Assembly: GCA_036250195.1 (NCBI GenBank)
Contig: JAVHZZ010000002.1
Coordinates: forward strand, 279,702,960-279,766,959
DNA: 64,000 nucleotides
Direction of reading: 5' to 3'
Origin: Mixophyes australis
Lineage: Eukaryota; Chordata; Amphibia; Anura; Limnodynastidae
Both the position numbers and the translations under genes were made by a program. Positions 15,844-54,824 of this stretch are shown one piece after another. How positions within the stretch are numbered: the stretch's first letter is position 1; each line of letters begins with the position of its first letter. The notes under the pieces are model-generated. The model was not told the DNA's origin. It did no database searches and saw only the letters and a list, made by a program, of their open reading frames with translations.

Positions 15844-15856
15844 GTTTGCTCTGGCC
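15844..15856 (+). promoter_or_regulatory. Self-primer binding site of element B
   Basis: GTTTGCTCTGGCC lies between the LTR end and the gag ATG (15857). Its core TTGCTCTGGC is the exact 10-nt complement of GCCAGAGCAA in the 3' LTR (20338-20347), which is 31 nt below TATTTAAA (20307-20314). There is no TGG-start tRNA match. Confidence 0.75.
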
Positions 15857-33743: not shown

Positions 33744-34039
33744 CCTAGGATCTGTACAGTTTAGCGCTACACCAACAGGGCGCGGAGTCTAACAAGCAGA
33801 CTGTGTTCACCAGGAACCGCCGCAAAGCAGTATGGTCTTAGCTGTGTCTGCTCGCAGGTCGCGGCCCCTGTCAGACTACTGAACGAGACCCTCTTGGGAA
33901 GTCATGAGAAAAAGTAATAGTTGGATTACCGGAACAGCTGAAGGAACGTCAGCTCCGTAGACCGAGGATGGATCAGTAGATATTAGTTGGAGCATGAGCT
34001 CAGAAGACCAGCAGGTAGGATAGCAGGTACATCAGTATA

Positions 34040-34256
34040 GTGTCAGCTTTGCAGACGAGTAAAGTAGTAGGTACTTGAGTAGAGTGTCAGCTTTGCAGAC
34101 GAGTAAAGTAGAGTAGTCGGTACCTGAGTGGAGTGTCAGCTTTGCAGACGAGTAAAGTAGAGTAGTCGGTACCTGAGTGGAGTGTCAGCTTTGCAGATGA
34201 GTAGAGTAGCAGGTACTTGAGTAGAGTGTCAGCTTTGCAGACAAGTAAAGTAGAGT
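34040..34256. repeat. 44/49-bp minisatellite in LTR E (left part)
   Basis: Units starting GTGTCAGCTTTGCAGACGAG alternate between 44 and 49 bp. About five copies lie here and about two more continue at 54481-54580. The PLE array is inserted within one unit. Confidence 0.85.
34244..34256. repeat. Target-site duplication of the PLE array (left)
   Basis: AGTAAAGTAGAGT, repeated at 54481-54493 on the other side of the array. The minisatellite itself contains this word in several units, so the exact length (13-14 nt) is ambiguous. Confidence 0.75.
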
Positions 34257-36395
34257 ACACCTATTGAAAAGAAAAGTTGACTGCACCAGGTGTACCATTA
34301 AACCTCCTCTTATTGTATGAATACCTCTTTCACCGTTAATATGGAGAAAATAACTTTATTAAGGAGGGGTGCACCCGGTCAAAGATTTGTAATAACCTTT
34401 TAGAAAGAAGAAAAAGAAATGACCATCTGGGGCACTCATAAATGGATGTAAACATATATATTTTAATTATATTTATATGTTGAAAGTAATAAAATTAATC
34501 TTTATTGGTATCTGATTAAAAACAATTGTCTAATAGCGAAATATAAAAGGTGATAATGGAAACATTGATTGTTATAAACATAAATTCAGTTAAGATAGAC
34601 AAAAAATTGTCTAGCCGCGAGGCTACCCGTGTATCTTAGGACTTATTCAAAGGAATTCTGTAATAGATCCACCTTATTAAGTATTGCAACACTCCTAATT
34701 TAAATATAAATGCTTCGTGTTGCCTCTGTTATTACACTTGATAAATATATACTCATAGATCGGATTCAGCAATGAATGGTATAGAATCAGATTGTCCCAC
34801 TAAACCCTTACTAGTTATAAGAGGTTTTAATTAGCTCCTAATAGTCAGTTCATAGATTGTCCTTATGAATGCTTGTTATTACTTCTGTTTTTCTACCTTT
34901 GTATTCTCTCATATACAAATCCAGCAGTAGGTAATATTGGTTATAATAAACTCTTAGATCCCTTATAGGGTGTTAATGATTTAACAATCTAATACTAGTA
35001 GGCTCGTGAATTTATGAGGAAGGATATCCTACCTCAAAGACCTACTAGCTGGCTACATATGAGGATAATTAGGACATCAGAGGAGCTACACATAGACCTT
35101 AGACTCTAGGATATTGGGCTTGACCTGGGACTTCCTATATAGATTGATCCCATGAAATGGATCTAGATTGCTATCTATATCATCCCCTGGATCTCTACCG
35201 CTGACCGCTATAATAGCTCCACTATCTACTGCTTCAGAGGCACACGCTAAATGAATTATTGAAGGAATTGACACGAGTAGCGAGCGCGGCGTCCGCCGAC
35301 GCGCGTTTCGCTAGTAGCTTTGACAAGGCAAGCCGATATCACGGCTGGAGGGAGTATATAAAGAAGAGAGCCCTCCCACAAAATGACGTGTACTTGACAA
35401 CGTTGTAGCAACCGAGGTTGCATGGAATGAACTTCAGGAAATGACTGTTCACTTAACTCCCCTTGATGACAACTTCCTTAGTAACGCTATAGCAACCATC
35501 GGGTTGCTGAGGAAATCTTTTCACGATATTGTTGTATTATTTGAGAGAGAAGGCAAGAGAAAGGAGGAAACATCAAGCTGCTAATCTTCATATTTGATCA
35601 CAGTTAAGGTGGAATACATTTTACATATAACGAAATATCCTCCGCAGTAAAGCGGATAAAATTCATGATAACATAATTCATCTGAGGGTGTGCAATGTAA
35701 ATGGATCAAAATCCATATCGAAGGCTTGATACAGATAAGTGAGTAATATAAATTTTATATTGAAGGTCTCAACTTTCATTAGGTGTATACTTGTTAGTTG
35801 CACTTAGGATTAAAGTTTCAATAATCCACATAATTGATTTTATAAATAATTCCTCTGTTATTCTCCAAGCTTGAGCATTTGAAAATTGTAAGTATGTATA
35901 ATAAAAACAGTTCCTGGAATTTCCATCCAAATCTAGTGTGTGGATACATGGTGTATAAATTAACCCTGATGGGTAAGTGACACCTCCTATATTGTGAAGT
36001 GTAAAATAGACAAATATAAAAGCTAATATTATTACCAATCAAACTGAATGATAATGTGATGCGTGACTGATATTCCTCATACTCAATGTGAATAATATAT
36101 ATTAAATTTGTTATTTGAGATAGGGTCAGATCAAAAATGCCCTAAAGATTGAGTGTCAATTCTAAATACCATCAATTGTGTTAAGACGATCCAAACCGGA
36201 CCGAGGTTTAAACATAATAATTAAAGTGAACAAAACATAAATAAAAGTGAAAATAAAAATGAAAATAGATAATATAAAGATGCCCATAAATAATATCATT
36301 TAGACATAGGTATTATTAGTAAGGGTTATTCCAGGTTTCTCAACTCTAAAGAAGGGGGGGGAAATTTTTGGTTTTGTTTAAATGAACAAATGTAC

Positions 36396-38681
36396 TCAAT
36401 CCAAAAATACAGAGTAGTTGCTGTGGTCATTCAGACCATACGGAACCATACTGCCCATCATGAAAATTAGTTTAGTTTCTTCACGTAGTAGCTCACTGTT
36501 AATGTCACCTCCCCTCAGACCTAGATTTATCTGTTTCATCGCGAAGGCTGTTAAAGCCTTCGGATCACTGCGGTGATATTTTAAAAAATGTTTAGCAACC
36601 ACTGTTATCTGTTTCAGATTGGCTTTGTCACTGGCAGCCCTCCTGATGTTCCCCAAATGTTCCAAGACACGTTTTTTGAAGGGTCTGCTCGTCATGCCTA
36701 TGTATACCAAATTGCAAGGACATGATAGGCAATAAATGACATTGATTGAATTACAGTTGAGAAATTTAGCGATTTTCCATGTCTTGCCAAATTTGTCCCT
36801 ATACTCCTTGGTCTGCTGCATATTGGGACAGGCTTTGCATGAACCGCATTTGAAAAAACCATTGGGAATTTTGCCTGAACTTTTTTTCGGAGTTAAGAAG
36901 CTATGTACTAATTGGTCTCTTAAATTTTTTGATCTTCTCCAAGTAATGGAGACTCTATCCTCTAATGATTCTCTCAGATCTTTATCCAATTTTAGAACAT
37001 GCCAGTGTCTCTGTAATATCCGTGTGATAGTTCTCCATTCTGCACAGAAAGTTCCTATTACTCGTAATTTACTGTTCCGACTATCTGTTGGACCTTTTTT
37101 GATTGTCTGATGTATAAGAGCATCTCTTGTGTATTTGGACACATTATTTTCAGCAGTTTTGATAGTATTGGCATCATACCCCCTCTTTTTTAATCTGTAT
37201 TTTAATTCAGATGATCTCTGTTTGTAAGTCTGTTCATCTGAGCAGTTCCTCTTTGTTCTTAATAATTCTGCTTTTGGGATTCCTGAGATCACTGATGGAA
37301 AGTGGGAACTAGACGCATGTAGTAAACTGTTCGTGGCTGTTTCTTTCCTGAACATGTCAGTATGTAATCTACCATCTTCAGTTATGGATATAGTTAAATC
37401 CAGAAAATTGATGGATACACTCTGGATATCAGCTGTTAATCTCAGATTAAGATCATTCTTGTTTAATAAATCAGTAAATTCATGGAATAGTTCAAAACTA
37501 CCATCCCATAGAATGATCACATCGTCTATGTATCTAAGCCATAATAATATATGGTCAGAATATTTCTCATTCTGCTGCTGGAAAACTACTTCCTTCTCCC
37601 ACCAGCCAAGATATAAGTTAGCATAGGTGGGAGCGCAAGCAGTTCCCATCGCAGTCCCCCTGATTTGTAGATAGAATTTTTCTTCAAACACAAAATAGTT
37701 CTTAGTTAATACAAATCTAAGAAGTGTAATTACAAATGTTGTAAGGTCGGTGTTTTTCTCCATCCCTAGAAAATAGTCTACAGCATGTAGTCCATTATCA
37801 TGTGCTATATTCGTATACAGGGATTCTATGTCATATGACGCCAATTTAGTGGTTGCGTTAACATTAATGTTGTCAAGTTTGGACAGAACATCTTTAGTAT
37901 CTCTAATATAGGAATCCAGGCTAATAACATGTTTCCGAAGATGATAGTCGATAAATCTACTGGCTTTTTCAGTCAGGCTGCCATTCCCTGATACTATCGG
38001 TCTACCCGGGGGTAGCCGTTCGTTCTTATGAATTTTTGGCAACATGTACAGTGTGGCAATTCTAGGGTTGGTGACCTTGAGAAATTCGTAATCTGATTTA
38101 GAGATTACATTACTTTGATGGGCATGACCAATAATGTTATTGTAACTAATAAGAAAATTTGCAGTTGGATTGAATAGAATTTGTTTATAACAATCCTTAT
38201 TGTTCAATTGTCGATAAACTTCATCAAGATACATTGATTTTGGCCACAATACTACATTGCCCCCTTTATCCGAGGGCTTAATCACAACATCTTCCCATTG
38301 GGACATCTCTCTCAGTGCCTTCATTTCATCTTTATTTAAATTTCCATCCCGTGATTTAAACTGTTTAGTTTCAAAGAGAAGTTTGTCCAAATCCTTGGAG
38401 ACTAATTCTCTGAAAATTTCTACTTGTGGACAGATCGATGAATCAGGAAAGAAAGTGGATCTAGGTTTGATATTAGGTAACCTCACAAAGTCAGATATCT
38501 CAGTAGTGGTAGTAATCTCACTATCTTCCACATTGCATTGATACAGTTCTTCTAAAATGGATAGAACCTGTTTGTCTTCTTCAGTATCAAGAGAGGTACT
38601 ATTTACCATAGGTATTGCTGTATCTTCCAGATTAGGGATAATCTCCTCCCTTTGTTTAACTTTGAAGAATTTATTGAGCAA
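36396..38681 (-). CDS. PLE RT-GIY-YIG endonuclease ORF2, copy 1
   Basis: Same 761-codon frame as the plus-strand copy at 44660-46945, described there in full. Here it lies on the minus strand, with all motifs intact (YIDD, GIY-YIG) and the LPPGRPIV block unmutated. The frame is open upstream to the G8 run (C8 on the plus strand, near 38922-38930). Confidence 0.9.
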   Translation of the reverse strand: MLNKFFKVKQREEIIPNLEDTAIPMVNSTSLDTEEDKQVLSILEELYQCNVEDSEITTTTEISDFVRLPNIKPRSTFFPDSSICPQVEIFRELVSKDLDKLLFETKQFKSRDGNLNKDEMKALREMSQWEDVVIKPSDKGGNVVLWPKSMYLDEVYRQLNNKDCYKQILFNPTANFLISYNNIIGHAHQSNVISKSDYEFLKVTNPRIATLYMLPKIHKNERLPPGRPIVSGNGSLTEKASRFIDYHLRKHVISLDSYIRDTKDVLSKLDNINVNATTKLASYDIESLYTNIAHDNGLHAVDYFLGMEKNTDLTTFVITLLRFVLTKNYFVFEEKFYLQIRGTAMGTACAPTYANLYLGWWEKEVVFQQQNEKYSDHILLWLRYIDDVIILWDGSFELFHEFTDLLNKNDLNLRLTADIQSVSINFLDLTISITEDGRLHTDMFRKETATNSLLHASSSHFPSVISGIPKAELLRTKRNCSDEQTYKQRSSELKYRLKKRGYDANTIKTAENNVSKYTRDALIHQTIKKGPTDSRNSKLRVIGTFCAEWRTITRILQRHWHVLKLDKDLRESLEDRVSITWRRSKNLRDQLVHSFLTPKKSSGKIPNGFFKCGSCKACPNMQQTKEYRDKFGKTWKIAKFLNCNSINVIYCLSCPCNLVYIGMTSRPFKKRVLEHLGNIRRAASDKANLKQITVVAKHFLKYHRSDPKALTAFAMKQINLGLRGGDINSELLREETKLIFMMGSMVPYGLNDHSNYSVFLD

Positions 38682-38830
38682 TAACTTCCTAGAGAATAGT
38701 ACTAGATCTTTTTCCCATGCAAATCTATTTAAATACTGGGTAGGGGAGAAGGAGAGACCTTTACTTAATAATGTAACCTGTGTGGAGGTAAGGGTTCTGT
38801 TAGATAAATTAATAACCCTAAGGGAGTCTT

Positions 38831-39664
38831 CTAATATCTGGTTCGTCTGAAGTTTCTCCTCATAGCCGGTTGGTTCCCCTGTTCCTCCATCTCCTTTCTT
38901 TTTCTGTCCCTTAAACTTCTTCCCCCCCCTCCGAATTTGGTAGAACTTTCCTGTCCTCCTCTGTCTCTGTGTCTGGCACCCAATTCTAAAAAATCCCTCG
39001 TCGATGTTAAATCTCTTGTTTCATTAGGACCATATCGATCAGAAGTTTCATTTTCAGATGAATCTGGTTCAGAGGTACTATAAGTTGGTGTCTTCTTAAA
39101 TGATTTTTTGGTATACCATCTAAAAACCTTATTTTGTGCATAATCATCTTTATCTCGGGAGAATTTATTACGTTTCTTCTCCACAATGGTACTCTCAAAG
39201 AGATCCAAATCTTTTTTCAATTTTTCATAAGCTTTCTGAAAGGGTTCAAGTCCCTCAAAGTTCTTCAACTTCTCTCCCAGTACAGAAATCTCAAGTGCAT
39301 ATTTTTCCAATAAGATATTATCATGTCTCACCAAGATGTTAATCAGTTCATTGGAACATTTGGTTAGTGAATTTTCCCACTCCTTTCTCAGCTCTTCATT
39401 AATAAGATCAAAAGCTGGATATAACTTTGGTCTCAGCCCTCTGGGAATCATGTTCTGCTTAGTATAATTGCAGAACATGGTTTTATTCCAGAAGGTTTTT
39501 ACTTGTTTAAACATAATAGTCTTTAATTCAAAAAGATCCTGTGTCCAACCTCTTGTAGTTGTGGGGTGGCCTGAAATATTATCAGCCAAAAAGTCAATAT
39601 CCCCATCTGACTGCCATTTCTCTTGTCTCTTAGAAAGCTCTCCACTTAGACTGAAATTAGCCAT
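38831..39664 (-). CDS. PLE ORF1 (N-terminal region), copy 1
   Basis: 277-codon frame identical in content to the plus-strand ORF1 at 43677-44510, starting MANFSLSGELSKRQEKW. Described under that copy. Confidence 0.88.
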   Translation of the reverse strand: MANFSLSGELSKRQEKWQSDGDIDFLADNISGHPTTTRGWTQDLFELKTIMFKQVKTFWNKTMFCNYTKQNMIPRGLRPKLYPAFDLINEELRKEWENSLTKCSNELINILVRHDNILLEKYALEISVLGEKLKNFEGLEPFQKAYEKLKKDLDLFESTIVEKKRNKFSRDKDDYAQNKVFRWYTKKSFKKTPTYSTSEPDSSENETSDRYGPNETRDLTSTRDFLELGARHRDRGGQESSTKFGGGGRSLRDRKRKEMEEQGNQPAMRRNFRRTRY

Positions 39665-39793
39665 AATTTATTAAACTTTTATTATATTGTATTGTTAATT
39701 AGAATAATATCTAGTGTTATTTATTATAACAAAACACCTGTGCTAGTCTGGAAAAGGGTGGGCAGAGACCACCTTGGATATAGCATCCAGTAT

Positions 39794-42700
39794 ACACCTA
39801 TTGAAAAGAAAAGTTGACTGCACCAGGTGTACCATTAAACCTCCTCTTATTGTATGAATACCTCTTTCACCGTTAATATGGAGAAAATAACTTTATTAAG
39901 GAGGGGTGCACCCGGTCAAAGATTTGTAATAACCTTTTAGAAAGAAGAAAAAGAAATGACCATCTGGGGCACTCATAAATGGATGTAAACATATATATTT
40001 TAATTATATTTATATGTTGAAAGTAATAAAATTAATCTTTATTGGTATCTGATTAAAAACAATTGTCTAATAGCGAAATATAAAAGGTGATAATGGAAAC
40101 ATTGATTGTTATAAACATAAATTCAGTTAAGATAGACAAAAAATTGTCTAGCCGCGAGGCTACCCGTGTATCTTAGGACTTATTCAAAGGAATTCTGTAA
40201 TAGATCCACCTTATTAAGTATTGCAACACTCCTAATTTAAATATAAATGCTTCGTGTTGCCTCTGTTATTACACTTGATAAATATATACTCATAGATCGG
40301 ATTCAGCAATGAATGGTATAGAATCAGATTGTCCCACTAAACCCTTACTAGTTATAAGAGGTTTTAATTAGCTCCTAATAGTCAGTTCATAGATTGTCCT
40401 TATGAATGCTTGTTATTACTTCTGTTTTTCTACCTTTGTATTCTCTCATATACAAATCCAGCAGTAGGTAATATTGGTTATAATAAACTCTTAGATCCCT
40501 TATAGGGTGTTAATGATTTAACAATCTAATACTAGTATGCTCGTGAATTTATGAGGAAGGATATCCTACCTCAAAGACCTACTAGCTGGCTACATATGAG
40601 GATAATTAGGACATCAGAGGAGCTACACATAGACCTTAGACTCTAGGATATTGGGCTTGACCTGGGACTTCCTATATAGATTGATCCCATGAAATGGATC
40701 TAGATTGCTATCTATATCATCCCCTGGATCTCTACCGCTGACCACTATAATAGCTCCACTATCTACTGCTTCAGAGGCACACGCTAAATGAATTATTGAA
40801 GGAATTGACACGAGTAGCGAGCGCGGCGTCCGCCGACGCGCGTTTCGCTAGTAGCTTTGACAAGGCAAGCCGATATCACGGCTGGAGGGAGTATATAAAG
40901 AAGAGAGCCCTCCCACAAAATGACGTGTACTTGACAACGTTGTAGCAACCGAGGTTGCATGGAATGAACTTCAGGAAATGACTGTTCACTTAACTCCCCT
41001 TGATGACAACTTCCTTAGTAACGCTATAGCAACCATCGGGTTGCTGAGGAAATCTTTTCACGATATTGTTGTATTATTTGAGAGAGAAGGCAAGAGAAAG
41101 GAGGAAACATCAAGCTGCTAATCTTCATATTTGATCACAGTTAAGGTGGAATACATTTTACATATAACGAAATATCCTCCGCAGTAAAGCGGATAAAATT
41201 CATGATAACATAATTCATCTGAGGGTGTGCAATGTAAATGGATCAAAATCCATATCGAAGGCTTGATACAGATAAGTGAGTAATATAAATTTTATATTGA
41301 AGGTCTCAACTTTCATTAGGTGTATACTTGTTAGTTGCACTTAGGATTAAAGTTTCAATAATCCACATAATTGATTTTATAAATAATTCCTCTGTTATTC
41401 TCCAAGCTTGAGCATTTGAAAATTGTAAGTATGTATAATAAAAACAGTTCCTGGAATTTCCATCCAAATCTAGTGTGTGGATACATGGTGTATAAATTAA
41501 CCCTGATGGGTAAGTGACACCTCCTATATTGTGAAGTGTAAAATAGACAAATATAAAAGCTAATATTATTACCAATCAAACTGAATGATAATGTGATGCG
41601 TGACTGATATTCCTCATACTCAATGTGAATAATATATATGAAATTTGTTATTTGAGATAGGGTCAGATCAAAAATGCCCTAAAGATTGAGTGTCAATTCT
41701 AAATACCATCAATTGTGTTAAGACGATCCAAACCGGACCGAGGTTTAAACATAATAATTAAAGTGAACAAAACATAAATAAAAGTGAAAATAAAAATGAA
41801 AATAGATAATATAAAGATGCCCATAAATAATATCATTTAGACATAGGTATTATTAGTAAGGGTTATTCCAGGTTTCTCAACTCTAAAGAAGGGGGGGGGA
41901 ATTTTTGGTTTTGTTTAAATGAACAAATGTACTCAATCCAAAAATACAGAGTAGTTGCTGTGGTCATTCAGACCATACGGAACCATACTGCCCATCATGA
42001 AAATTAGTTTAGTTTCTTCACGTAGTAGCTCACTGTTAATGTCACCTCCCCTCAGACCTAGATTTATCTGTTTCATCGCGAAGGCTGTTAAAGCCTTCGG
42101 ATCACTGCGGTGATATTTTAAAAAATGTTTAGCAACCACTGTTATCTGTTTCAGATTGGCTTTGTCACTGGCAGCCCTCCTGATGTTCCCCAAATGTTCC
42201 AAGACACGTTTTTTGAAGGGTCTGCTCGTCATGCCTATGTATACCAAATTGCAAGGACATGATAGGCAATAAATGACATTGATTGAATTACAGTTGAGAA
42301 ATTTAGCGATTTTCCATGTCTTGCCAAATTTGTCCCTATACTCCTTGGTCTGCTGCATATTGGGACAGGCTTTGCATGAACCGCATTTGAAAAAACCATT
42401 GGGAATTTTGCCTGAACTTTTTTTCGGAGTTAAGAAGCTATGTACTAATTGGTCTCTTAAATTTTTTGATCTTCTCCAAGTAATGGAGACTCTATCCTCT
42501 AATGATTCTCTCAGATCTTTATCCAATTTTAGAACATGCCAGTGTCTCTGTAATATCCGTGTGATAGTTCTCCATTCTGCACAGAAAGTTCCTATTACTC
42601 GTAATTTACTGTTCCGACTATCTGTTGGACCTTTTTTGATTGTCTGATGTATAAGAGCATCTCTTGTGTATTTGGACACATTATTTTCAGCAGTTTTGAT

Positions 42701-42986
42701 AGTATTGGCATCATACCCCCTCTTTTTTAATCTGTATTTTAATTCAGATGATCTCTGTTTGTAAGTCTGTTCATCTGAGCAGTTCCTCTTTGTTCTTAAT
42801 AATTCTGCTTTTGGGATTCCTGAGATCACTGATGGAAAGTGGGAACTAGACGCATGTAGTAAACTGTTCGTGGCTGTTTCTTTCCTGAACATGTCAGTAT
42901 GTAATCTACCATCTTCAGTTATGGATATAGTTAAATCCAGAAAATTGATGGATACACTCTGGATATCAGCTGTTAATCTCAGATTA
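39794..42986 (-). mobile_element. PLE unit 2 (minus), 5'-truncated
   Basis: 3193 bp of the 3' part of a unit, directly tandem and upstream (in element sense) of unit 1. It begins within ORF2, so only the last 319 codons remain (42892-41933, starting near DMFRKETATN): the C-terminal linker and the GIY-YIG domain. The sequence stops at CAGATTA, where the plus-strand fragment begins. It serves as the pseudo-LTR of unit 1. Confidence 0.9.
41933..42892 (-). pseudogene. PLE ORF2 C-terminal fragment
   Basis: 319 codons of ORF2 without the RT catalytic core. It contains the CGSCKACP zinc-finger-like linker and the GIY-YIG nuclease (IYCLSC...VYIGMTSRPFKKR). It was truncated by the inversion junction at 42986. 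No start signal of its own is evident. Confidence 0.9.
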
Positions 42987-42990
42987 TAAC
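42984..42990. other. Inversion junction at the centre of the PLE array
   Basis: Minus-oriented unit 2 meets plus-oriented sequence here. TTA (42984-42986) fits both partners: the ORF2 region (CAGATTA) and the 3' region (CTTATAACTAG, compare 48521-48530). The join thus has 3-nt microhomology. Confidence 0.85.
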
Positions 42991-43547
42991 TAGTAAGGGT
43001 TTAGTGGGACAATCTGATTCTATACCATTCATTGCTGAATCCGATCTATGAGTATATATTTATCAAGTGTAATAACAGAGGCAACACGAAGCATTTATAT
43101 TTAAATTAGGAGTGTTGCAATACTTAATAAGGTGGATCTATTACAGAATTCCTTTGAATAAGTCCTAAGATACACGGGTAGCCTCGCGGCTAGACAATTT
43201 TTTGTCTATCTTAACTGAATTTATGTTTATAACAATCAATGTTTCCATTATCACCTTTTATATTTCGCTATTAGACAATTGTTTTTAATCAGATACCAAT
43301 AAAGATTAATTTTATTACTTTCAACATATAAATATAATTAAAATATATATGTTTACATCCATTTATGAGTGCCCCAGATGGTCATTTCTTTTTCTTCTTT
43401 CTAAAAGGTTATTACAAATCTTTGACCGGGTGCACCCCTCCTTAATAAAGTTATTTTCTCCATATTAACGGTGAAAGAGGTATTCATACAATAAGAGGAG
43501 GTTTAATGGTACACCTGGTGCAGTCAACTTTTCTTTTCAATAGGTGT
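42987..43547 (+). mobile_element. PLE 3'-end fragment (plus)
   Basis: About 561 bp equal to 48524-49084, i.e. only the end of a unit, placed in tandem before the full unit at 43548. Non-coding. Confidence 0.88.
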
Positions 43548-43676
43548 ATACTGGATGCTATATCCAAGGTGGTCTCTGCCCACCCTTTTCCAGACTAGCA
43601 CAGGTGTTTTGTTATAATAAATAACACTAGATATTATTCTAATTAACAATACAATATAATAAAAGTTTAATAAATT

Positions 43677-44510
43677 ATGGCTAATTTCAGTCTAAGTGGA
43701 GAGCTTTCTAAGAGACAAGAGAAATGGCAGTCAGATGGGGATATTGACTTTTTGGCTGATAATATTTCAGGCCACCCCACAACTACAAGAGGTTGGACAC
43801 AGGATCTTTTTGAATTAAAGACTATTATGTTTAAACAAGTAAAAACCTTCTGGAATAAAACCATGTTCTGCAATTATACTAAGCAGAACATGATTCCCAG
43901 AGGGCTGAGACCAAAGTTATATCCAGCTTTTGATCTTATTAATGAAGAGCTGAGAAAGGAGTGGGAAAATTCACTAACCAAATGTTCCAATGAACTGATT
44001 AACATCTTGGTGAGACATGATAATATCTTATTGGAAAAATATGCACTTGAGATTTCTGTACTGGGAGAGAAGTTGAAGAACTTTGAGGGACTTGAACCCT
44101 TTCAGAAAGCTTATGAAAAATTGAAAAAAGATTTGGATCTCTTTGAGAGTACCATTGTGGAGAAGAAACGTAATAAATTCTCCCGAGATAAAGATGATTA
44201 TGCACAAAATAAGGTTTTTAGATGGTATACCAAAAAATCATTTAAGAAGACACCAACTTATAGTACCTCTGAACCAGATTCATCTGAAAATGAAACTTCT
44301 GATCGATATGGTCCTAATGAAACAAGAGATTTAACATCGACGAGGGATTTTTTAGAATTGGGTGCCAGACACAGAGACAGAGGAGGACAGGAAAGTTCTA
44401 CCAAATTCGGAGGGGGGGGAAGAAGTTTAAGGGACAGAAAAAGAAAGGAGATGGAGGAACAGGGGAACCAACCGGCTATGAGGAGAAACTTCAGACGAAC
44501 CAGATATTAG
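43677..44510 (+). CDS. PLE ORF1 (N-terminal region)
   Basis: 277 codons from an ATG in AATTATGGC context. Lys/Glu-rich, predicted mostly helical: residues 1-75 contain several Trp (W17, W41 and W59), and 95-165 look coiled-coil-like (NELINILVRHDNILLEKY...EKLKKDLDLF). From about residue 165 it is basic and low complexity (KKRNKFSRDKDD; STSEPDSSENETSD; RHRDRGGQES). After the G8 run at 44412-44419 the last 30 codons differ from what the -1 frame offers. That alternative frame reads on as KKFKGQKKK into ORF2, so ORF1 is probably the N-terminal part of one larger PLE protein. The run is G8 in all three copies. Role likely nucleic-acid binding; family-wide function unknown. Confidence 0.85.
   Translation: MANFSLSGELSKRQEKWQSDGDIDFLADNISGHPTTTRGWTQDLFELKTIMFKQVKTFWNKTMFCNYTKQNMIPRGLRPKLYPAFDLINEELRKEWENSLTKCSNELINILVRHDNILLEKYALEISVLGEKLKNFEGLEPFQKAYEKLKKDLDLFESTIVEKKRNKFSRDKDDYAQNKVFRWYTKKSFKKTPTYSTSEPDSSENETSDRYGPNETRDLTSTRDFLELGARHRDRGGQESSTKFGGGGRSLRDRKRKEMEEQGNQPAMRRNFRRTRY
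44411..44420 (+). promoter_or_regulatory. G8 run linking ORF1 to ORF2
   Basis: AGGGGGGGGA near the ORF1 end. A -1 slip (or one extra G) continues translation into the ORF2 frame, which is open from before this point through 46942. The same run is at 38922-38930 (C8) and at 49948-49956. Confidence 0.6.
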
Positions 44511-44659
44511 AAGACTCCCTTAGGGTTATTAATTTATCTAACAGAACCCTTACCTCCACACAGGTTACATTATTAAGTAAAGGTCTCTCCTTCTCCCCTA
44601 CCCAGTATTTAAATAGATTTGCATGGGAAAAAGATCTAGTACTATTCTCTAGGAAGTTA

Positions 44660-46945
44660 TTGCTCAATAAATTCTTCAAAGTTAAACAAAGGGAGGAGAT
44701 TATCCCTAATCTGGAAGATACAGCAATACCTATGGTAAATAGTACCTCTCTTGATACTGAAGAAGACAAACAGGTTCTATCCATTTTAGAAGAACTGTAT
44801 CAATGCAATGTGGAAGATAGTGAGATTACTACCACTACTGAGATATCTGACTTTGTGAGGTTACCTAATATCAAACCTAGATCCACTTTCTTTCCTGATT
44901 CATCGATCTGTCCACAAGTAGAAATTTTCAGAGAATTAGTCTCCAAGGATTTGGACAAACTTCTCTTTGAAACTAAACAGTTTAAATCACGGGATGGAAA
45001 TTTAAATAAAGATGAAATGAAGGCACTGAGAGAGATGTCCCAATGGGAAGATGTTGTGATTAAGCCCTCGGATAAAGGGGGCAATGTAGTATTGTGGCCA
45101 AAATCAATGTATCTTGATGAAGTTTATCGACAATTGAACAATAAGGATTGTTATAAACAAATTCTATTCAATCCAACTGCAAATTTTCTTATTAGTTACA
45201 ATAACATTATTGGTCATGCCCATCAAAGTAATGTAATCTCTAAATCAGATTACGAATTTCTCAAGGTCACCAACCCTAGAATTGCCACACTGTACATGTT
45301 GCCAAAAATTCATAAGAACGAACGGCTACCCCCGGGTAGACCGATAGTATCAGGGAATGGCAGCCTGACTGAAAAAGCCAGTAGATTTATCGACTATCAT
45401 CTTCGGAAACATGTTATTAGCCTGGATTCCTATATTAGAGATACTAAAGATGTTCTGTCCAAACTTGACAACATTAATGTTAACGCAACCACTAAATTGG
45501 CGTCATATGACATAGAATCCCTGTATACGAATATAGCACATGATAATGGACTACATGCTGTAGACTATTTTCTAGGGATGGAGAAAAACACCGACCTTAC
45601 AACATTTGTAATTACACTTCTTAGATTTGTATTAACTAAGAACTATTTTGTGTTTGAAGAAAAATTCTATCTACAAATCAGGGGGACTGCGATGGGAACT
45701 GCTTGCGCTCCCACCTATGCTAACTTATATCTTGGCTGGTGGGAGAAGGAAGTAGTTTTCCAGCAGCAGAATGAGAAATATTCTGACCATATATTATTAT
45801 GGCTTAGATACATAGACGATGTGATCATTCTATGGGATGGTAGTTTTGAACTATTCCATGAATTTACTGATTTATTAAACAAGAATGATCTTAATCTGAG
45901 ATTAACAGCTGATATCCAGAGTGTATCCATCAATTTTCTGGATTTAACTATATCCATAACTGAAGATGGTAGATTACATACTGACATGTTCAGGAAAGAA
46001 ACAGCCACGAACAGTTTACTACATGCGTCTAGTTCCCACTTTCCATCAGTGATCTCAGGAATCCCAAAAGCAGAATTATTAAGAACAAAGAGGAACTGCT
46101 CAGATGAACAGACTTACAAACAGAGATCATCTGAATTAAAATACAGATTAAAAAAGAGGGGGTATGATGCCAATACTATCAAAACTGCTGAAAATAATGT
46201 GTCCAAATACACAAGAGATGCTCTTATACATCAGACAATCAAAAAAGGTCCAACAGATAGTCGGAACAGTAAATTACGAGTAATAGGAACTTTCTGTGCA
46301 GAATGGAGAACTATCACACGGATATTACAGAGACACTGGCATGTTCTAAAATTGGATAAAGATCTGAGAGAATCATTAGAGGATAGAGTCTCCATTACTT
46401 GGAGAAGATCAAAAAATTTAAGAGACCAATTAGTACATAGCTTCTTAACTCCGAAAAAAAGTTCAGGCAAAATTCCCAATGGTTTTTTCAAATGCGGTTC
46501 ATGCAAAGCCTGTCCCAATATGCAGCAGACCAAGGAGTATAGGGACAAATTTGGCAAGACATGGAAAATCGCTAAATTTCTCAACTGTAATTCAATCAAT
46601 GTCATTTATTGCCTATCATGTCCTTGCAATTTGGTATACATAGGCATGACGAGCAGACCCTTCAAAAAACGTGTCTTGGAACATTTGGGGAACATCAGGA
46701 GGGCTGCCAGTGACAAAGCCAATCTGAAACAGATAACAGTGGTTGCTAAACATTTTTTAAAATATCACCGCAGTGATCCGAAGGCTTTAACAGCCTTCGC
46801 GATGAAACAGATAAATCTAGGTCTGAGGGGAGGTGACATTAACAGTGAGCTACTACGTGAAGAAACTAAACTAATTTTCATGATGGGCAGTATGGTTCCG
46901 TATGGTCTGAATGACCACAGCAACTACTCTGTATTTTTGGATTGA
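44660..46945 (+). CDS. PLE reverse transcriptase with GIY-YIG endonuclease (ORF2)
   Basis: 761 codons from the first listed start (a TTG). The frame is open further upstream to the G8 run, including the PLE N-terminal block VINLSNRTLTSTQVTLLSKG and FAWEKDLVLF, so the true protein is longer. RT motifs: KPSDKGGNVVLW (about 135), LPKIHKNERLPPGRPIVSG (about 215-235), ASYDIESLYTNI (motif A, about 280), GTAMGTACAPTYANLY (motif B, about 340), YIDD catalytic site at 384-387, INFLDLTI (about 430). Then a CGSCKACP cysteine cluster (about 612) and a GIY-YIG nuclease, with the IYC and VYIG halves at about 649-662 and SRPFKKRVLEH following. The family nicks target DNA and primes cDNA there. All visible catalytic residues are kept, so this copy may be active. 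Confidence 0.93.
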   Translation: MLNKFFKVKQREEIIPNLEDTAIPMVNSTSLDTEEDKQVLSILEELYQCNVEDSEITTTTEISDFVRLPNIKPRSTFFPDSSICPQVEIFRELVSKDLDKLLFETKQFKSRDGNLNKDEMKALREMSQWEDVVIKPSDKGGNVVLWPKSMYLDEVYRQLNNKDCYKQILFNPTANFLISYNNIIGHAHQSNVISKSDYEFLKVTNPRIATLYMLPKIHKNERLPPGRPIVSGNGSLTEKASRFIDYHLRKHVISLDSYIRDTKDVLSKLDNINVNATTKLASYDIESLYTNIAHDNGLHAVDYFLGMEKNTDLTTFVITLLRFVLTKNYFVFEEKFYLQIRGTAMGTACAPTYANLYLGWWEKEVVFQQQNEKYSDHILLWLRYIDDVIILWDGSFELFHEFTDLLNKNDLNLRLTADIQSVSINFLDLTISITEDGRLHTDMFRKETATNSLLHASSSHFPSVISGIPKAELLRTKRNCSDEQTYKQRSSELKYRLKKRGYDANTIKTAENNVSKYTRDALIHQTIKKGPTDSRNSKLRVIGTFCAEWRTITRILQRHWHVLKLDKDLRESLEDRVSITWRRSKNLRDQLVHSFLTPKKSSGKIPNGFFKCGSCKACPNMQQTKEYRDKFGKTWKIAKFLNCNSINVIYCLSCPCNLVYIGMTSRPFKKRVLEHLGNIRRAASDKANLKQITVVAKHFLKYHRSDPKALTAFAMKQINLGLRGGDINSELLREETKLIFMMGSMVPYGLNDHSNYSVFLD

Positions 46946-47980
46946 GTACATTTGTTCATTTAAACAAAACCAAAAATTTCCCCCCCCTTCTTTAGAGTTG
47001 AGAAACCTGGAATAACCCTTACTAATAATACCTATGTCTAAATGATATTATTTATGGGCATCTTTATATTATCTATTTTCATTTTTATTTTCACTTTTAT
47101 TTATGTTTTGTTCACTTTAATTATTATGTTTAAACCTCGGTCCGGTTTGGATCGTCTTAACACAATTGATGGTATTTAGAATTGACACTCAATCTTTAGG
47201 GCATTTTTGATCTGACCCTATCTCAAATAACAAATTTCATATATATTATTCACATTGAGTATGAGGAATATCAGTCACGCATCACATTATCATTCAGTTT
47301 GATTGGTAATAATATTAGCTTTTATATTTGTCTATTTTACACTTCACAATATAGGAGGTGTCACTTACCCATCAGGGTTAATTTATACACCATGTATCCA
47401 CACACTAGATTTGGATGGAAATTCCAGGAACTGTTTTTATTATACATACTTACAATTTTCAAATGCTCAAGCTTGGAGAATAACAGAGGAATTATTTATA
47501 AAATCAATTATGTGGATTATTGAAACTTTAATCCTAAGTGCAACTAACAAGTATACACCTAATGAAAGTTGAGACCTTCAATATAAAATTTATATTACTC
47601 ACTTATCTGTATCAAGCCTTCGATATGGATTTTGATCCATTTACATTGCACACCCTCAGATGAATTATGTTATCATGAATTTTATCCGCTTTACTGCGGA
47701 GGATATTTCGTTATATGTAAAATGTATTCCACCTTAACTGTGATCAAATATGAAGATTAGCAGCTTGATGTTTCCTCCTTTCTCTTGCCTTCTCTCTCAA
47801 ATAATACAACAATATCGTGAAAAGATTTCCTCAGCAACCCGATGGTTGCTATAGCGTTACTAAGGAAGTTGTCATCAAGGGGAGTTAAGTGAACAGTCAT
47901 TTCCTGAAGTTCATTCCATGCAACCTCGGTTGCTACAACGTTGTCAAGTACACGTCATTTTGTGGGAGGGCTCTCTTCTT

Positions 47981-48071
47981 TATATACTCCCTCCAGCCGT
48001 GATATCGGCTTGCCTTGTCAAAGCTACTAGCGAAACGCGCGTCGGCGGACGCCGCGCTCGCTACTCGTGTC
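47981..48071 (+). ncRNA. Hammerhead-like ribozyme fold below a TATA box
   Basis: TATATA at 47981-47986 is followed about 30 nt later by TTGCCTTGTCAAAGCTACTAG, then CGAAACGCGCGTC and a GC-rich hairpin (GCGCGTCGGCGGACGCCGCGC), ending in CTCGTGTC. The GAAAC core, stem III-like hairpin and GTC look like the hammerhead motifs known in PLE pseudo-LTRs. The usual CTGATGA core is replaced by CTTGTCAAAG, so cleavage is doubtful. Copies at 53548-53608 (+) and, minus strand, 35270-35330 and 40807-40867. Confidence 0.45.
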
Positions 48072-49213
48072 AATTCCTTCAATAATTCATTTAGCGTGTG
48101 CCTCTGAAGCAGTAGATAGTGGAGCTATTATAGCGGTCAGCGGTAGAGATCCAGGGGATGATATAGATAGCAATCTAGATCCATTTCATGGGATCAATCT
48201 ATATAGGAAGTCCCAGGTCAAGCCCAATATCCTAGAGTCTAAGGTCTATGTGTAGCTCCTCTGATGTCCTAATTATCCTCATATGTAGCCAGCTAGTAGG
48301 TCTTTGAGGTAGGATATCCTTCCTCATAAATTCACGAGCATACTAGTATTAGATTGTTAAATCATTAACACCCTATAAGGGATCTAAGAGTTTATTATAA
48401 CCAATATTACCTACTGCTGGATTTGTATATGAGAGAATACAAAGGTAGAAAAACAGAAGTAATAACAAGCATTCATAAGGACAATCTATGAACTGACTAT
48501 TAGGAGCTAATTAAAACCTCTTATAACTAGTAAGGGTTTAGTGGGACAATCTGATTCTATACCATTCATTGCTGAATCCGATCTATGAGTATATATTTAT
48601 CAAGTGTAATAACAGAGGCAACACGAAGCATTTATATTTAAATTAGGAGTGTTGCAATACTTAATAAGGTGGATCTATTACAGAATTCCTTTGAATAAGT
48701 CCTAAGATACACGGGTAGCCTCGCGGCTAGACAATTTTTTGTCTATCTTAACTGAATTTATGTTTATAACAATCAATGTTTCCATTATCACCTTTTATAT
48801 TTCGCTATTAGACAATTGTTTTTAATCAGATACCAATAAAGATTAATTTTATTACTTTCAACATATAAATATAATTAAAATATATATGTTTACATCCATT
48901 TATGAGTGCCCCAGATGGTCATTTCTTTTTCTTCTTTATAAAAGGTTATTACAAATCTTTGACCGGGTGCACCCCTCCTTAATAAAGTTATTTTCTCCAT
49001 ATTAACGGTGAAAGAGGTATTCATACAATAAGAGGAGGTTTAATGGTACACCTGGTGCAGTCAACTTTTCTTTTCAATAGGTGTATACTGGATGCTATAT
49101 CCAAGGTGGTCTCTGCCCACCCTTTTCCAGACTAGCACAGGTGTTTTGTTATAATAAATAACACTAGATATTATTCTAATTAACAATACAATATAATAAA
49201 AGTTTAATAAATT

Positions 49214-50047
49214 ATGGCTAATTTCAGTCTAAGTGGAGAGCTTTCTAAGAGACAAGAGAAATGGCAGTCAGATGGGGATATTGACTTTTTGGCTGATAAT
49301 ATTTCAGGCCACCCCACAACTACAAGAGGTTGGACACAGGATCTTTTTGAATTAAAGACTATTATGTTTAAACAAGTAAAAACCTTCTGGAATAAAACCA
49401 TGTTCTGCAATTATACTAAGCAGAACATGATTCCCAGAGGGCTGAGACCAAAGTTATATCCAGCTTTTGATCTTATTAATGAAGAGCTGAGAAAGGAGTG
49501 GGAAAATTCACTAACCAAATGTTCCAATGAACTGATTAACATCTTGGTGAGACATGATAATATCTTATTGGAAAAATATGCACTTGAGATTTCTGTACTG
49601 GGAGAGAAGTTGAAGAACTTTGAGGGACTTGAACCCTTTCAGAAAGCTTATGAAAAATTGAAAAAAGATTTGGATCTCTTTGAGAGTACCATTGTGGAGA
49701 AGAAACGTAATAAATTCTCCCGAGATAAAGATGATTATGCACAAAATAAGGTTTTTAGATGGTATACCAAAAAATCATTTAAGAAGACACCAACTTATAG
49801 TACCTCTGAACCAGATTCATCTGAAAATGAAACTTCTGATCGATATGGTCCTAATGAAACAAGAGATTTAACATCGACGAGGGCTTTTTTAGAATTGGGT
49901 GCCAGACACAGAGACAGAGGAGGACAGGAAAGTTCTACCAAATTCGGAGGGGGGGGAAGAAGTTTAAGGGACAGAAAAAGAAAGGAGATGGAGGAACAGG
50001 GGAACCAACCGGCTATGAGGAGAAACTTCAGACGAACCAGATATTAG
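49214..50047 (+). CDS. PLE ORF1, copy 3
   Basis: 277 codons, as at 43677-44510, with one visible replacement: TSTRAFLEL instead of TSTRDFLEL near 49883. Keeps the G8 run. Confidence 0.85.
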   Translation: MANFSLSGELSKRQEKWQSDGDIDFLADNISGHPTTTRGWTQDLFELKTIMFKQVKTFWNKTMFCNYTKQNMIPRGLRPKLYPAFDLINEELRKEWENSLTKCSNELINILVRHDNILLEKYALEISVLGEKLKNFEGLEPFQKAYEKLKKDLDLFESTIVEKKRNKFSRDKDDYAQNKVFRWYTKKSFKKTPTYSTSEPDSSENETSDRYGPNETRDLTSTRAFLELGARHRDRGGQESSTKFGGGGRSLRDRKRKEMEEQGNQPAMRRNFRRTRY

Positions 50048-50196
50048 AAGACTCCCTTAGGGTTATTAATTTATCTAACAGAACCCTTACCTCCACACAG
50101 GTTACATTATTAAGTAAAGGTCTCTCCTTCTCCCCTACCCAGTATTTAAATAGATTTGCATGGGAAAAAGATCTAGTACTATTCTCTAGGAAGTTA

Positions 50197-52482
50197 TTGC
50201 TCAATAAATTCTTCAAAGTTAAACAAAGGGAGGAGATTATCCCTAATCTGGAAGATACAGCAATACCTATGGTAAATAGTACCTCTCTTGATACTGAAGA
50301 AGACAAACAGGTTCTATCCATTTTAGAAGAACTGTATCAATGCAATGTGGAAGATAGTGAGATTACTACCACTACTGAGATATCTGACTTTGTGAGGTTA
50401 CCTAATATCAAACCTAGATCCACTTTCTTTCCTGATTCATCGATCTGTCCACAAGTAGAAATTTTCAGAGAATTAGTCTCCAAGGATTTGGACAAACTTC
50501 TCTTTGAAACTAAACAGTTTAAATCACGGGATGGAAATTTAAATAAAGATGAAATGAAGGCACTGAGAGAGATGTCCCAATGGGAAGATGTTGTGATTAA
50601 GCCCTCGGATAAAGGGGGCAATGTAGTATTGTGGCCAAAATCAATGTATCTTGATGAAGTTTATCGACAATTGAACAATAAGGATTGTTATAAACAAATT
50701 CTATTCAATCCAACTGCAAATTTTCTTATTAGTTACAATAACATTATTGGTCATGCCCATCAAAGTAATGTAATCTCTAAATCAGATTACGAATTTCTCA
50801 AGGTCACCAACCCTAGAATTGCCACACTGTACATGTTGCCAAAAATTCATAAGAACGAACGGCTACCCCTGGGTAGACCGATAGTATCAGGGAATGGCAG
50901 CCTGACTGAAAAAGCCAGTAGATTTATCGACTATCATCTTCGGAAACATGTTATTAGCCTGGATTCCTATATTAGAGATACTAAAGATGTTCTGTCCAAA
51001 CTTGACAACATTAATGTTAACGCAACCACTAAATTGGCGTCATATGACATAGAATCCCTGTATACGAATATAGCACATGATAATGGACTACATGCTGTAG
51101 ACTATTTTCTAGGGATGGAGAAAAACACCGACCTTACAACATTTGTAATTACACTTCTTAGATTTGTATTAACTAAGAACTATTTTGTGTTTGAAGAAAA
51201 ATTCTATCTACAAATCAGGGGGACTGCGATGGGAACTGCTTGCGCTCCCACCTATGCTAACTTATATCTTGGCTGGTGGGAGAAGGAAGTAGTTTTCCAG
51301 CAGCAGAATGAGAAATATTCTGACCATATATTATTATGGCTTAGATACATAGACGATGTGATCATTCTATGGGATGGTAGTTTTGAACTATTCCATGAAT
51401 TTACTGATTTATTAAACAAGAATGATCTTAATCTGAGATTAACAGCTGATATCCAGAGTGTATCCATCAATTTTCTGGATTTAACTATATCCATAACTGA
51501 AGATGGTAGATTACATACTGACATGTTCAGGAAAGAAACAGCCACGAACAGTTTACTACATGCGTCTAGTTCCCACTTTCCATCAGTGATCTCAGGAATC
51601 CCAAAAGCAGAATTATTAAGAACAAAGAGGAACTGCTCAGATGAACAGACTTACAAACAGAGATCATCTGAATTAAAATACAGATTAAAAAAGAGGGGGT
51701 ATGATGCCAATACTATCAAAACTGCTGAAAATAATGTGTCCAAATACACAAGAGATGCTCTTATACATCAGACAATCAAAAAAGGTCCAACAGATAGTCG
51801 GAACAGTAAATTACGAGTAATAGGAACTTTCTGTGCAGAATGGAGAACTATCACACGGATATTACAGAGACACTGGCATGTTCTAAAATTGGATAAAGAT
51901 CTGAGAGAATCATTAGAGGATAGAGTCTCCATTACTTGGAGAAGATCAAAAAATTTAAGAGACCAATTAGTACATAGCTTCTTAACTCCGAAAAAAAGTT
52001 CAGGCAAAATTCCCAATGGTTTTTTCAAATGCGGTTCATGCAAAGCCTGTCCCAATATGCAGCAGACCAAGGAGTATAGGGACAAATTTGGCAAGACATG
52101 GAAAATCGCTAAATTTCTCAACTGTAATTCAATCAATGTCATTTATTGCCTATCATGTCCTTGCAATTTGGTATACATAGGCATGACGAGCAGACCCTTC
52201 AAAAAACGTGTCTTGGAACATTTGGGGAACATCAGGAGGGCTGCCAGTGACAAAGCCAATCTGAAACAGATAACAGTGGTTGCTAAACATTTTTTAAAAT
52301 ATCACCGCAGTGATCCGAAGGCTTTAACAGCCTTCGCGATGAAACAGATAAATCTAGGTCTGAGGGGAGGTGACATTAACAGTGAGCTACTACGTGAAGA
52401 AACTAAACTAATTTTCATGATGGGCAGTATGGTTCCGTATGGTCTGAATGACCACAGCAACTACTCTGTATTTTTGGATTGA
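50197..52482 (+). CDS. PLE RT-GIY-YIG ORF2, copy 3
   Basis: 761 codons, as at 44660-46945. One visible replacement: the conserved block reads ERLPLGRPIV instead of ERLPPGRPIV (CCG to CTG near 50870), a C-to-T change at a CpG. Catalytic YIDD and GIY-YIG are intact. The P-to-L change lies in the fingers region before motif A and could weaken the enzyme. Confidence 0.9.
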   Translation: MLNKFFKVKQREEIIPNLEDTAIPMVNSTSLDTEEDKQVLSILEELYQCNVEDSEITTTTEISDFVRLPNIKPRSTFFPDSSICPQVEIFRELVSKDLDKLLFETKQFKSRDGNLNKDEMKALREMSQWEDVVIKPSDKGGNVVLWPKSMYLDEVYRQLNNKDCYKQILFNPTANFLISYNNIIGHAHQSNVISKSDYEFLKVTNPRIATLYMLPKIHKNERLPLGRPIVSGNGSLTEKASRFIDYHLRKHVISLDSYIRDTKDVLSKLDNINVNATTKLASYDIESLYTNIAHDNGLHAVDYFLGMEKNTDLTTFVITLLRFVLTKNYFVFEEKFYLQIRGTAMGTACAPTYANLYLGWWEKEVVFQQQNEKYSDHILLWLRYIDDVIILWDGSFELFHEFTDLLNKNDLNLRLTADIQSVSINFLDLTISITEDGRLHTDMFRKETATNSLLHASSSHFPSVISGIPKAELLRTKRNCSDEQTYKQRSSELKYRLKKRGYDANTIKTAENNVSKYTRDALIHQTIKKGPTDSRNSKLRVIGTFCAEWRTITRILQRHWHVLKLDKDLRESLEDRVSITWRRSKNLRDQLVHSFLTPKKSSGKIPNGFFKCGSCKACPNMQQTKEYRDKFGKTWKIAKFLNCNSINVIYCLSCPCNLVYIGMTSRPFKKRVLEHLGNIRRAASDKANLKQITVVAKHFLKYHRSDPKALTAFAMKQINLGLRGGDINSELLREETKLIFMMGSMVPYGLNDHSNYSVFLD

Positions 52483-54480
52483 GTACATTTGTTCATTTAA
52501 ACAAAACCAAAAATTCCCCCCCCCTTCTTTAGAGTTGAGAAACCTGGAATAACCCTTACTAATAATACCTATGTCTAAATGATATTATTTATGGGCATCT
52601 TTATATTATCTATTTTCATTTTTATTTTCACTTTTATTTATGTTTTGTTCACTTTAATTATTATGTTTAAACCTCGGTCCGGTTTGGATCGTCTTAACAC
52701 AATTGATGGTATTTAGAATTGACACTCAATCTTTAGGGCATTTTTGATCTGACCCTATCTCAAATAACAAATTTCATATATATTATTCACATTGAGTATG
52801 AGGAATATCAGTCACGCATCACATTATCATTCAGTTTGATTGGTAATAATATTAGCTTTTATATTTGTCTATTTTACACTTCACAATATAGGAGGTGTCA
52901 CTTACCCATCAGGGTTAATTTATACACCATGTATCCACACACTAGATTTGGATGGAAATTCCAGGAACTGTTTTTATTATACATACTTACAATTTTCAAA
53001 TGCTCAAGCTTGGAGAATAACAGAGGAATTATTTATAAAATCAATTATGTGGATTATTGAAACTTTAATCCTAAGTGCAACTAACAAGTATACACCTAAT
53101 GAAAGTTGAGACCTTCAATATAAAATTTATATTACTCACTTATCTGTATTAAGCCTTCGATATGGATTTTGATCCATTTACATTGCACACCCTCAGATGA
53201 ATTATGTTATCATGAATTTTATCCGCTTTACTGCGGAGGATATTTCGTTATATGTAAAATGTATTCCACCTTAACTGTGATCAAATATGAAGATTAGCAG
53301 CTTGATGTTTCCTCCTTTCTCTTGCCTTCTCTCTCAAATAATACAACAATATCGTGAAAAGATTTCCTCAGCAACCCGATGGTTGCTATAGCGTTACTAA
53401 GGAAGTTGTCATCAAGGGGAGTTAAGTGAACAGTCATTTCCTGAAGTTCATTCCATGCAACCTCGGTTGCTACAACGTTGTCAAGTACACGTCATTTTGT
53501 GGGAGGGCTCTCTTCTTTATATACTCCCTCCAGCCGTGATATCGGCTTGCCTTGTCAAAGCTACTAGCGAAACGCGCGTCGGCGGACGCCGCGCTCGCTA
53601 CTCGTGTCAATTCCTTCAATAATTCATTTAGCGTGTGCCTCTGAAGCAGTAGATAGTGGAGCTATTATAGCGGTCAGCGGTAGAGATCCAGGGGATGATA
53701 TAGATAGCAATCTAGATCCATTTCATGGGATCAATCTATATAGGAAGTCCCAGGTCAAGCCCAATATCCTAGAGTCTAAGGTCTATGTGTAGCTCCTCTG
53801 ATGTCCTAATTATCCTCATATGTAGCCAGCTAGTAGGTCTTTGAGGTAGGATATCCTTCCTCATAAATTCACGAGCATACTAGTATTAGATTGTTAAATC
53901 ATTAACACCCTATAAGGGATCTAAGAGTTTATTATAACCAATATTACCTACTGCTGGATTTGTATATGAGAGAATACAAAGGTAGAAAAACAGAAGTAAT
54001 AACAAGCATTCATAAGGACAATCTATGAACTGACTATTAGGAGCTAATTAAAACCTCTTATAACTAGTAAGGGTTTAGTGGGACAATCTGATTCTATACC
54101 ATTCATTGCTGAATCCGATCTATGAGTATATATTTATCAAGTGTAATAACAGAGGCAACACGAAGCATTTATATTTAAATTAGGAGTGTTGCAATACTTA
54201 ATAAGGTGGATCTATTACAGAATTCCTTTGAATAAGTCCTAAGATACACGGGTAGCCTCGCGGCTAGACAATTTTTTGTCTATCTTAACTGAATTTATGT
54301 TTATAACAATCAATGTTTCCATTATCACCTTTTATATTTCGCTATTAGACAATTGTTTTTAATCAGATACCAATAAAGATTAATTTTATTACTTTCAACA
54401 TATAAATATAATTAAAATATATATGTTTACATCCATTTATGAGTGCCCCAGATGGTCATTTCTTTTTCTTCTTTCTAAAA

Positions 54481-54824
54481 AGTAAAGTAGAGTAGTCAGT
54501 ACCTGAGTGGAGTGTCAGCTTTGCAGACGAGTAGAGTAGCAGGTACTTGAGTAGAGTGTCAGCTTCGCAGACGAGTAAACAGGATACAGAGTAGCCACGT
54601 CTTAGGCACTCAAAGGCAACTGAGGAACAGGCACTGAGTGTTTGAAGGAAGTGCCTTTTGTATTTAGCGCCAATATTGCTTGACCAATAGGCATGCAGGC
54701 AGAGGTTTTATAAGTTGCGCATACGCAGACCCGAATCCAAGATGGTGGTGCCCGGGCCGGAGCGCCGGAGCGAGGTAAGTTTGCCGGAGGTCGGGTGGGC
54801 TGCTCGATACCCCGGCGAGTGACA
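54481..54824 (-). mobile_element. Chromovirus LTR E, right part
   Basis: Continues the minisatellite (to about 54580) and then U3 sequence. On the minus strand it starts TGTCACTCGCCGGGG (at 54824), the same TGTCA start as LTRs B and D, and has TATAAAAC (about 54712-54705) some 120 nt downstream. Confidence 0.7.

Follow-up and report, generated by a model that had tools for sequence, protein, structure and literature searches.

The 20-kb back-to-back Penelope block at 34256-54480 of the window (the whole stretch of 64,000 nucleotides analysed, C2:279702960-279766959) is best read as a single insertion of a type that recurs in the Mixophyes australis genome. In each of 14 completely mapped two-armed insertions, the outer ends fall at two places in the repeated unit, one at phase 412-431 (site A) and the other at phase 551-570 (site B), with no A+A or B+B pair among them. 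We regard it as probable that such insertions arise in one two-sided target-primed event, coordinated over two sites, in which each end of the break is primed at a different start site. The window array is ordinary in kind for its Penelope-like family and is informative through its unequal ends.

Structure of the array and its target site

Self-comparison of the window gave both arms as copies of a Penelope-like unit with a period of 5,537 bp, whose phase 0 was placed at 42984 (Table 1). The left arm holds a complete unit and a further 3,194 bp, the right arm two complete units and a further 423 bp, amounting to ∼3.65 units, with three to five copies of each unit position. Together with unit mapping, this bore out the coordinates, orientation, period and unit number proposed in the first-pass annotation, as well as the presence of AGTAAAGTAGAGT on both sides. 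The arms are 99.9% identical without indels, and the units differ at eight sites, seven of them singletons. The remaining one (phase 3995) splits 2:2 and is a T3C8/T2C9 homopolymer border in a tract that is also variable in the C11 and C10 long arrays. As the arms meet at different phases (0 and 2908), the array has no central palindrome. The outer 3′ ends are unequal, a detail missing from the first-pass annotation, the left (phase 564) extending 142 nt beyond the right (phase 422). At 20.2 kb, this is the largest two-armed insertion among those examined.

The insertion target is a host minisatellite with repeat starts, read by eye, at 34058, 34102, 34151, 34200, 34244 (equivalent to 54481), 54530 and 54574. 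The target-site duplication of 13-15 bp is in register with it. Because the minisatellite itself repeats AAGTAAAGTAGAGTA, the window duplication taken alone is weak and ambiguous. It is nonetheless credible, since the register holds across the empty site, where the 44/49 repeat spacing is preserved once the insert is removed, and since the duplications at sister insertions match it in size. In all 14 two-armed insertions the left flank shares 14-16 nt (overlaps included) with its own right flank, compared with at most 10 nt in 182 control comparisons with the right flanks of other insertions. Outer-end overlap lengths in diverged copies were unreliable, some being negative, and were excluded from the statistics. 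With one duplication around the block and the same layout in 14 insertions, the earlier suggestion of a single insertion at one target site is well supported. To the left of the array, translations read by eye showed several Ty3/Gypsy-type open frames on both strands (12950-22098 and 29081-32345).

Table 1. Features of the array (window positions) and related insertions elsewhere in the genome.
Feature	Position	Strand	Details
Host minisatellite, 44/49-bp, insertion target	34010-34257, resumes 54481-54579		Sequence comparison
Target-site duplication, left copy	34243-34257		AAGTAAAGTAGAGTA; ∼13 nt without element-end overlaps
Left (B) arm	34256-42986	-	8,731 bp; phase 2908 to 564; outer end is site B
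142-nt "tail"	34256-34397	-	A-to-B interval; missing from right arm's outer end
Centre junction	42984-42986		3-nt microhomology TTA; left phase 2908, right phase 0
Right (A) arm	42984-54480	+	11,497 bp; phase 0 to 422, two laps; outer end is site A
Target-site duplication, right copy	54480-54494		Repeats AAGTAAAGTAGAGTA
Upstream ORF, first right-arm unit	43677-44510	+	First ATG at phase 693; 278 codons
Upstream ORF copies, stop-to-stop	49211-50047; 38831-39667	+; -	Open reading frames
874-codon frame, reverse transcriptase and putative GIY-YIG-like endonuclease	44321-46945; 49858-52482; 36396-39020	+; +; -	Pfam
C-terminal part of 874-codon frame	41933-43000	-	
TATATA box	47981-47986, also 53518-53523	+	Phase 4997; recurrent 5′ arm ends lie ∼30 nt downstream
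Long two-armed arrays besides the window	C11:62476721-62492089; C6:224146386-224160403; C3:163923531-163936361 (C3b); C10:15273462-15287899; C12:39663456-39673478; C3:272785204-272796483 (C3c)		
Short two-armed arrays	C10:53422199-53424146 (C10b); C6:215529354-215531437 (C6b); C2:372023521-372025368 (C2b); C2:274155796-274157731 (C2c); C2:78098220-78100191 (L035); C1:305385485-305386954 (L039); C1:406438111-406439586 (L041)		
A-ended single-arm insertions	C1:431021025; C1:216611381; C1:346562785; C2:270347320; C5:248573331		C2:270347320 examined on one side, could hide an exception

Sister insertions and the pairing of their ends

Relatives of the unit were searched for in the whole genome (3.13 Gb, 680 contigs) and mapped by unit phase, with ends taken from BLAST boundaries and exact matches. 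The 14 completely mapped two-armed insertions, seven from an internal probe and seven from a probe favouring B ends, are all head-to-head with their 3′ ends outward. The B-favouring probe gave 24 B-ended matches, eight at loci already known and 16 additional. Eleven of those 16 were examined, comprising seven complete two-armed insertions, one incomplete (L036) and three without a second arm in the examined piece (L037, L038, L040). Excluded from the set of 14 were L036, whose right arm leaves the piece, L040 and C1:3517704-3520687 as incomplete or old, and all single-arm insertions.

Site B is on the left in nine of the 14 and on the right in five. Were the two ends chosen independently, the probability of 14 A+B pairs out of 14 (seven internally sampled, seven B-sampled) would be at most 2e-4 at any frequency of A. 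The 24 B-ended matches, out of 40 given by the B-favouring probe, which spans the ends, terminated at phase 550-570, and site B is therefore a family-wide end. An end-blind probe (phase 100-422, present in both end types) was also used, and the best 40 of its 483 candidates were scored. These held 17 insertions at ≥97% identity, six single-armed and 11 two-armed; all 11 recognised two-armed insertions are A+B and belong to the 14. The array had initially been described as an unusual product, a judgement that does not stand: a head-to-head pair of arms is present in 11 of the 17 close insertions among these best 40 matches, and the available parts of two publications (PMC3846280, PMC11167929) describe inverted, tailed copies. 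The strict A/B pairing, which is new here, and the presence of several units in either arm go beyond these published copies. The pairing rule was not found stated in the accessible portions of the open-access literature searched, though it may exist in print, and the available text of PMC12910113 added nothing on this question.

Single-armed insertions carried an A end in five cases overall and a B end in three; in the end-blind set (best 40 of 483) the division was five to one. Three A-only insertions have target duplications of 11, 26 and 10 nt, and the B-only L037 and L038 of the B-selected set have duplications of 10 and 11 nt. No duplication was found for the B-ended single arm C3:24399176-24405481, which is 99.8% identical to the window unit, and none of ≥7 nt was found in 131 + 72 nt of flank at the A-ended C5:248573331. 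As far as these data can be read, single-sided insertion occurs with site A or site B, and two-sided insertion, among those examined, uses both.

Some single-armed copies showed further peculiarities. The 5′ end of C5:248573331 (L052/L053, C5:248573200-248574320) is a 13-nt inverted self-copy of phase 5029-5041 that resembles a very short foldback. In the A-ended insertion with the 26-nt duplication (L050/L047, C1:216610650-216611860), ∼25-30 unexplained nucleotides separate the arm from the left copy of the duplication. By eye, ∼17 nt resembling site A lie in plus orientation directly upstream of the 5′ end of the B-ended L037 (L037:1651-1680). Eleven matches had 79-81% identity, among them C2:133068337-133073907, a diverged relative of the family in which a pair of matches is likewise head-to-head.

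The blocks flanking both start sites (GAGTGCCCC, TGACCGGGTGCACCCC, GGTGCAGT; 48902-49092, phase 381-571) appear by eye nearly unchanged in two relatives of 78-79% identity, and this conservation suggests an RNA or protein-binding signal around sites A and B. A picture of the two sites as two hairpins, seen in one fold, was abandoned when an alignment fold paired them otherwise with almost no covariation; RNA structure around A and B was unsupported by the folding score (z -0.48) and by double changes (one in 39 pairs).

Template, joining and competing explanations

Under the coordinated two-site model that we favour, the element enzyme would make a staggered break leaving two 3′ overhangs of ∼13 nt. 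Both 3′ ends would then prime reverse transcription within the element RNA, the first at one of sites A and B and the second at the other, and both cDNAs would extend 5′-ward on a linear read-through RNA of at least three tandem units. The window cDNAs would have halted short of the RNA 5′ end and then been joined by microhomology. Both primers may be served by one ribonucleoprotein whose two catalytic units occupy adjacent start sites; the strictness of A/B pairing suggests one such particle rather than two independent events, and we infer a protein dimer as the enzyme arrangement behind it. Two-sided target priming, one of the routes named in the first-pass annotation, is well supported. Concatemeric cDNA and template switching, named alongside it, are unneeded for the two orientations, and the multi-unit arms are better explained by read-through RNA, although C3b does have a jump within one arm. 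That jump, in the left (B) arm (L018, L019), links phase 4446 to phase 3056 without a change of strand and with a 3-nt overlap, and could be a template jump or an RNA deletion.

Four of the 28 arms of the 14 arrays start at phase 5026-5028, two of the four belonging to one insertion (L035). Such a cluster was absent from 20,000 uniform draws and had a probability of 0.00075 when starts were limited to 700 nt, P values that are indicative only, the cluster having been noticed before testing and half of it coming from L035. Further arms start at phase 5026 at C1:216610769 and C1:212912861. Phase 5026-5028 (window 48010-48012), below the TATA box, is a probable transcription start, and the RNA would accordingly be linear with a true 5′ end. 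If so, arms that exceed a single unit, such as those of 13.2 kb (C10), 12.9 kb (C6) and 11.5 kb (window), would have needed a read-through transcript covering several units. At one site in C6 and two sites in C10, a variant common to the terminal units of the two arms sets them apart from the inner units, a pattern predicted when copying of both arms begins on the same final unit of a single multi-unit template. An excess of shared terminal variants was not found in C3c (one of 12 substitution sites). The window variants do not indicate which template unit was used; the 2:2 split at phase 3995 is at odds with copying in the same register, but its position is the edge of a homopolymer. The evidence on the template as a whole is suggestive rather than strong.

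Multi-unit arms could also come from rolling reverse transcription on a circular RNA over several laps, a template first considered because the tandem units are joined seamlessly and hardly differ. Other retroelements are reported to have circular RNAs that carry hammerhead ribozymes (PMC7761336, PMC4918200). A circle has no 5′ end, yet arms of short insertions stop repeatedly at phase 5026-5028, and at three sites (C6, C10) the terminal laps of the two arms match each other but not the inner laps. Nor was a hammerhead ribozyme found, with no Rfam match at E ≤ 1 in the window and no CTGANGA core in the unit's terminal-repeat region, searches that short divergent motifs could escape. Taken together, the recurrent 5′ end near a TATA box and the shared terminal variants favour linear multi-unit RNA and make the circular template unlikely.

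At the centre, the seven long arrays overlap by 1-3 nt, with a mean of 2.0 against 0.67 by chance (P = 0.0024, from BLAST boundaries in these seven arrays only and with equal base frequencies assumed), which indicates microhomology joining. The centres of the seven short arrays vary from 17 extra nt to a 36-nt overlap.

Twenty kilobases of 99.9% identical repeats are difficult to assemble, and the array is known from the assembly alone; repeat collapse, expansion or a chimera might have produced it, and the number of units could be off by one. The full units can, however, be told apart by their variants, the flanks are direct rather than mirrored, which speaks against a missed-adapter foldback, and ten other insertions from the end-blind sample (best 40 of 483) share the layout, several of them only ∼2 kb long. 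We consider an artefact quite unlikely. Union of the two orientations by two independent insertions, or by recombination between two, could draw on near-identical copies elsewhere (e.g., C3:24399176-24405481), but is highly improbable given one duplication around the entire block, nothing between the window arms and 14 occurrences of the A + B layout.

Least probable of all as a general account is self-priming foldback, in which the cDNA turns and copies itself into an inverted arm, as proposed for Penelope from central palindromes (PMC3846280, available text): both arms of the short arrays L035 and C2c start at the same phase and overlap at the centre, and C5:248573331 bears its inverted stretch, but a tail cannot be copied from a tailless arm, private variants of window units in one arm are missing from the other, the A arm exceeds the B arm in the window, C10 and C11 and extends further 5′ in C2b, and the C3b A arm lacks the internal deletion of the B arm. 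The longer A arm excludes foldback copying in the window, and arm length or content led us to reject it also for C10, C11, C2b and C3b; it is possible for some short symmetric arrays.

Two-sided priming at two sites may go further and be obligatorily asymmetric in this family: one ribonucleoprotein with a multi-unit linear RNA would place two reverse transcriptases on its two sites, the two ends of a staggered break would never be extended from the same one, and every two-sided insertion would have exactly one tail, marking the target strand served by the second enzyme. We advance this tentatively, with slightly less than even confidence. If true, the tail, so far regarded as an "optional extension", would be the signature of that strand.

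Element proteins and relation to known systems

The element shows several hallmarks of endonuclease-bearing Penelope-like elements, namely tandem or partial-tandem units with pseudo-LTRs, 5′ truncation, short target-site duplications and a tail on a subset of ends. Its 278- and 874-codon frames (43674-44510 and 44321-46945 in the first right-arm unit) overlap and are both open in all three full units. As they lie in different frames, a single protein would need splicing or frameshifting; among 117 open GT-AG joins, none was compelling. The reverse transcriptase was counted as present on the basis of PF00078 (E 4.7e-5 for the reverse transcriptase piece, 23.6 bits against a curated cut-off of 29.6) and a YIDD motif seen by eye. 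The GIY-YIG endonuclease gave a weak match to PF01541 (E 0.012, 16.3 bits against a cut-off of 22.6), with the motif IYCLSCPCNLVYIGMT recognised by eye. An AlphaFold model of the endonuclease made without an alignment was useless (mean pLDDT 36). No solved relative was found by sequence at E ≤ 1, and no related loci were found in viral contigs.

A close functional comparison is with Poseidon of Anolis carolinensis (PAc), whose purified protein cuts and extends both strands and whose two internal RNA start sites delimit the tail (PMC11167929). According to the available part of that 2024 in vitro study, no active full-length protein of the Penelope-like class had been purified before, the protein is predicted to dimerise, and no difference in start-site use was seen between strands, which speaks against a strand-specific pairing. 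PAc thus shares with the window element its tandem units, two internal start sites, extension of both strands and a dimer model. Its main start lies inside the ORF, whereas the window sites precede the first ATG by ∼128 and 270 nt, and it has a hammerhead motif where none was found in the window element. A/B-type pairing at the two ends of one insertion was not found reported in the accessible text of PMC11167929.

Penelope elements of Adineta vaga (Pen2a_Av and others) have direct and inverted terminal repeats, the latter mostly head-to-head, with duplications, partial tandems and a tail optionally on one inverted repeat, and self-priming was proposed for them (PMC3846280, in the portion available). 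In the copies described there, the inversion mostly involves a short terminal repeat, whereas both arms in the window family can hold at least one full unit. The tail is 31 bp in A. vaga and ∼125-145 nt in the window family, and duplications are 8-10 bp in several copies as against 10-16 nt, with one of 26. The central palindromes reported there also contrast with the window array. Inverted pseudo-LTRs and 3′ extensions have likewise been noted elsewhere (PMC8969392, available sections).

The insertion mechanism of Penelope-like elements is still open, and intact two-armed products are numerous in the family described here. The one-A-one-B rule is a constraint on any mechanism and can be checked in other genomes by counting end pairs. 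It would make the optional tail evidence for two coordinated initiations and would explain tandem and inverted arrays in one step.

In LINE-1 twin priming the second priming position is not known to be fixed, whereas in the window family it is, and two-armed insertions make up 11 of 17 close copies (best 40 of 483). In both, a single break supplies a pair of 3′ ends that prime on the element RNA, giving an inverted junction and a duplication (PMC2837659, as far as its available text describes).
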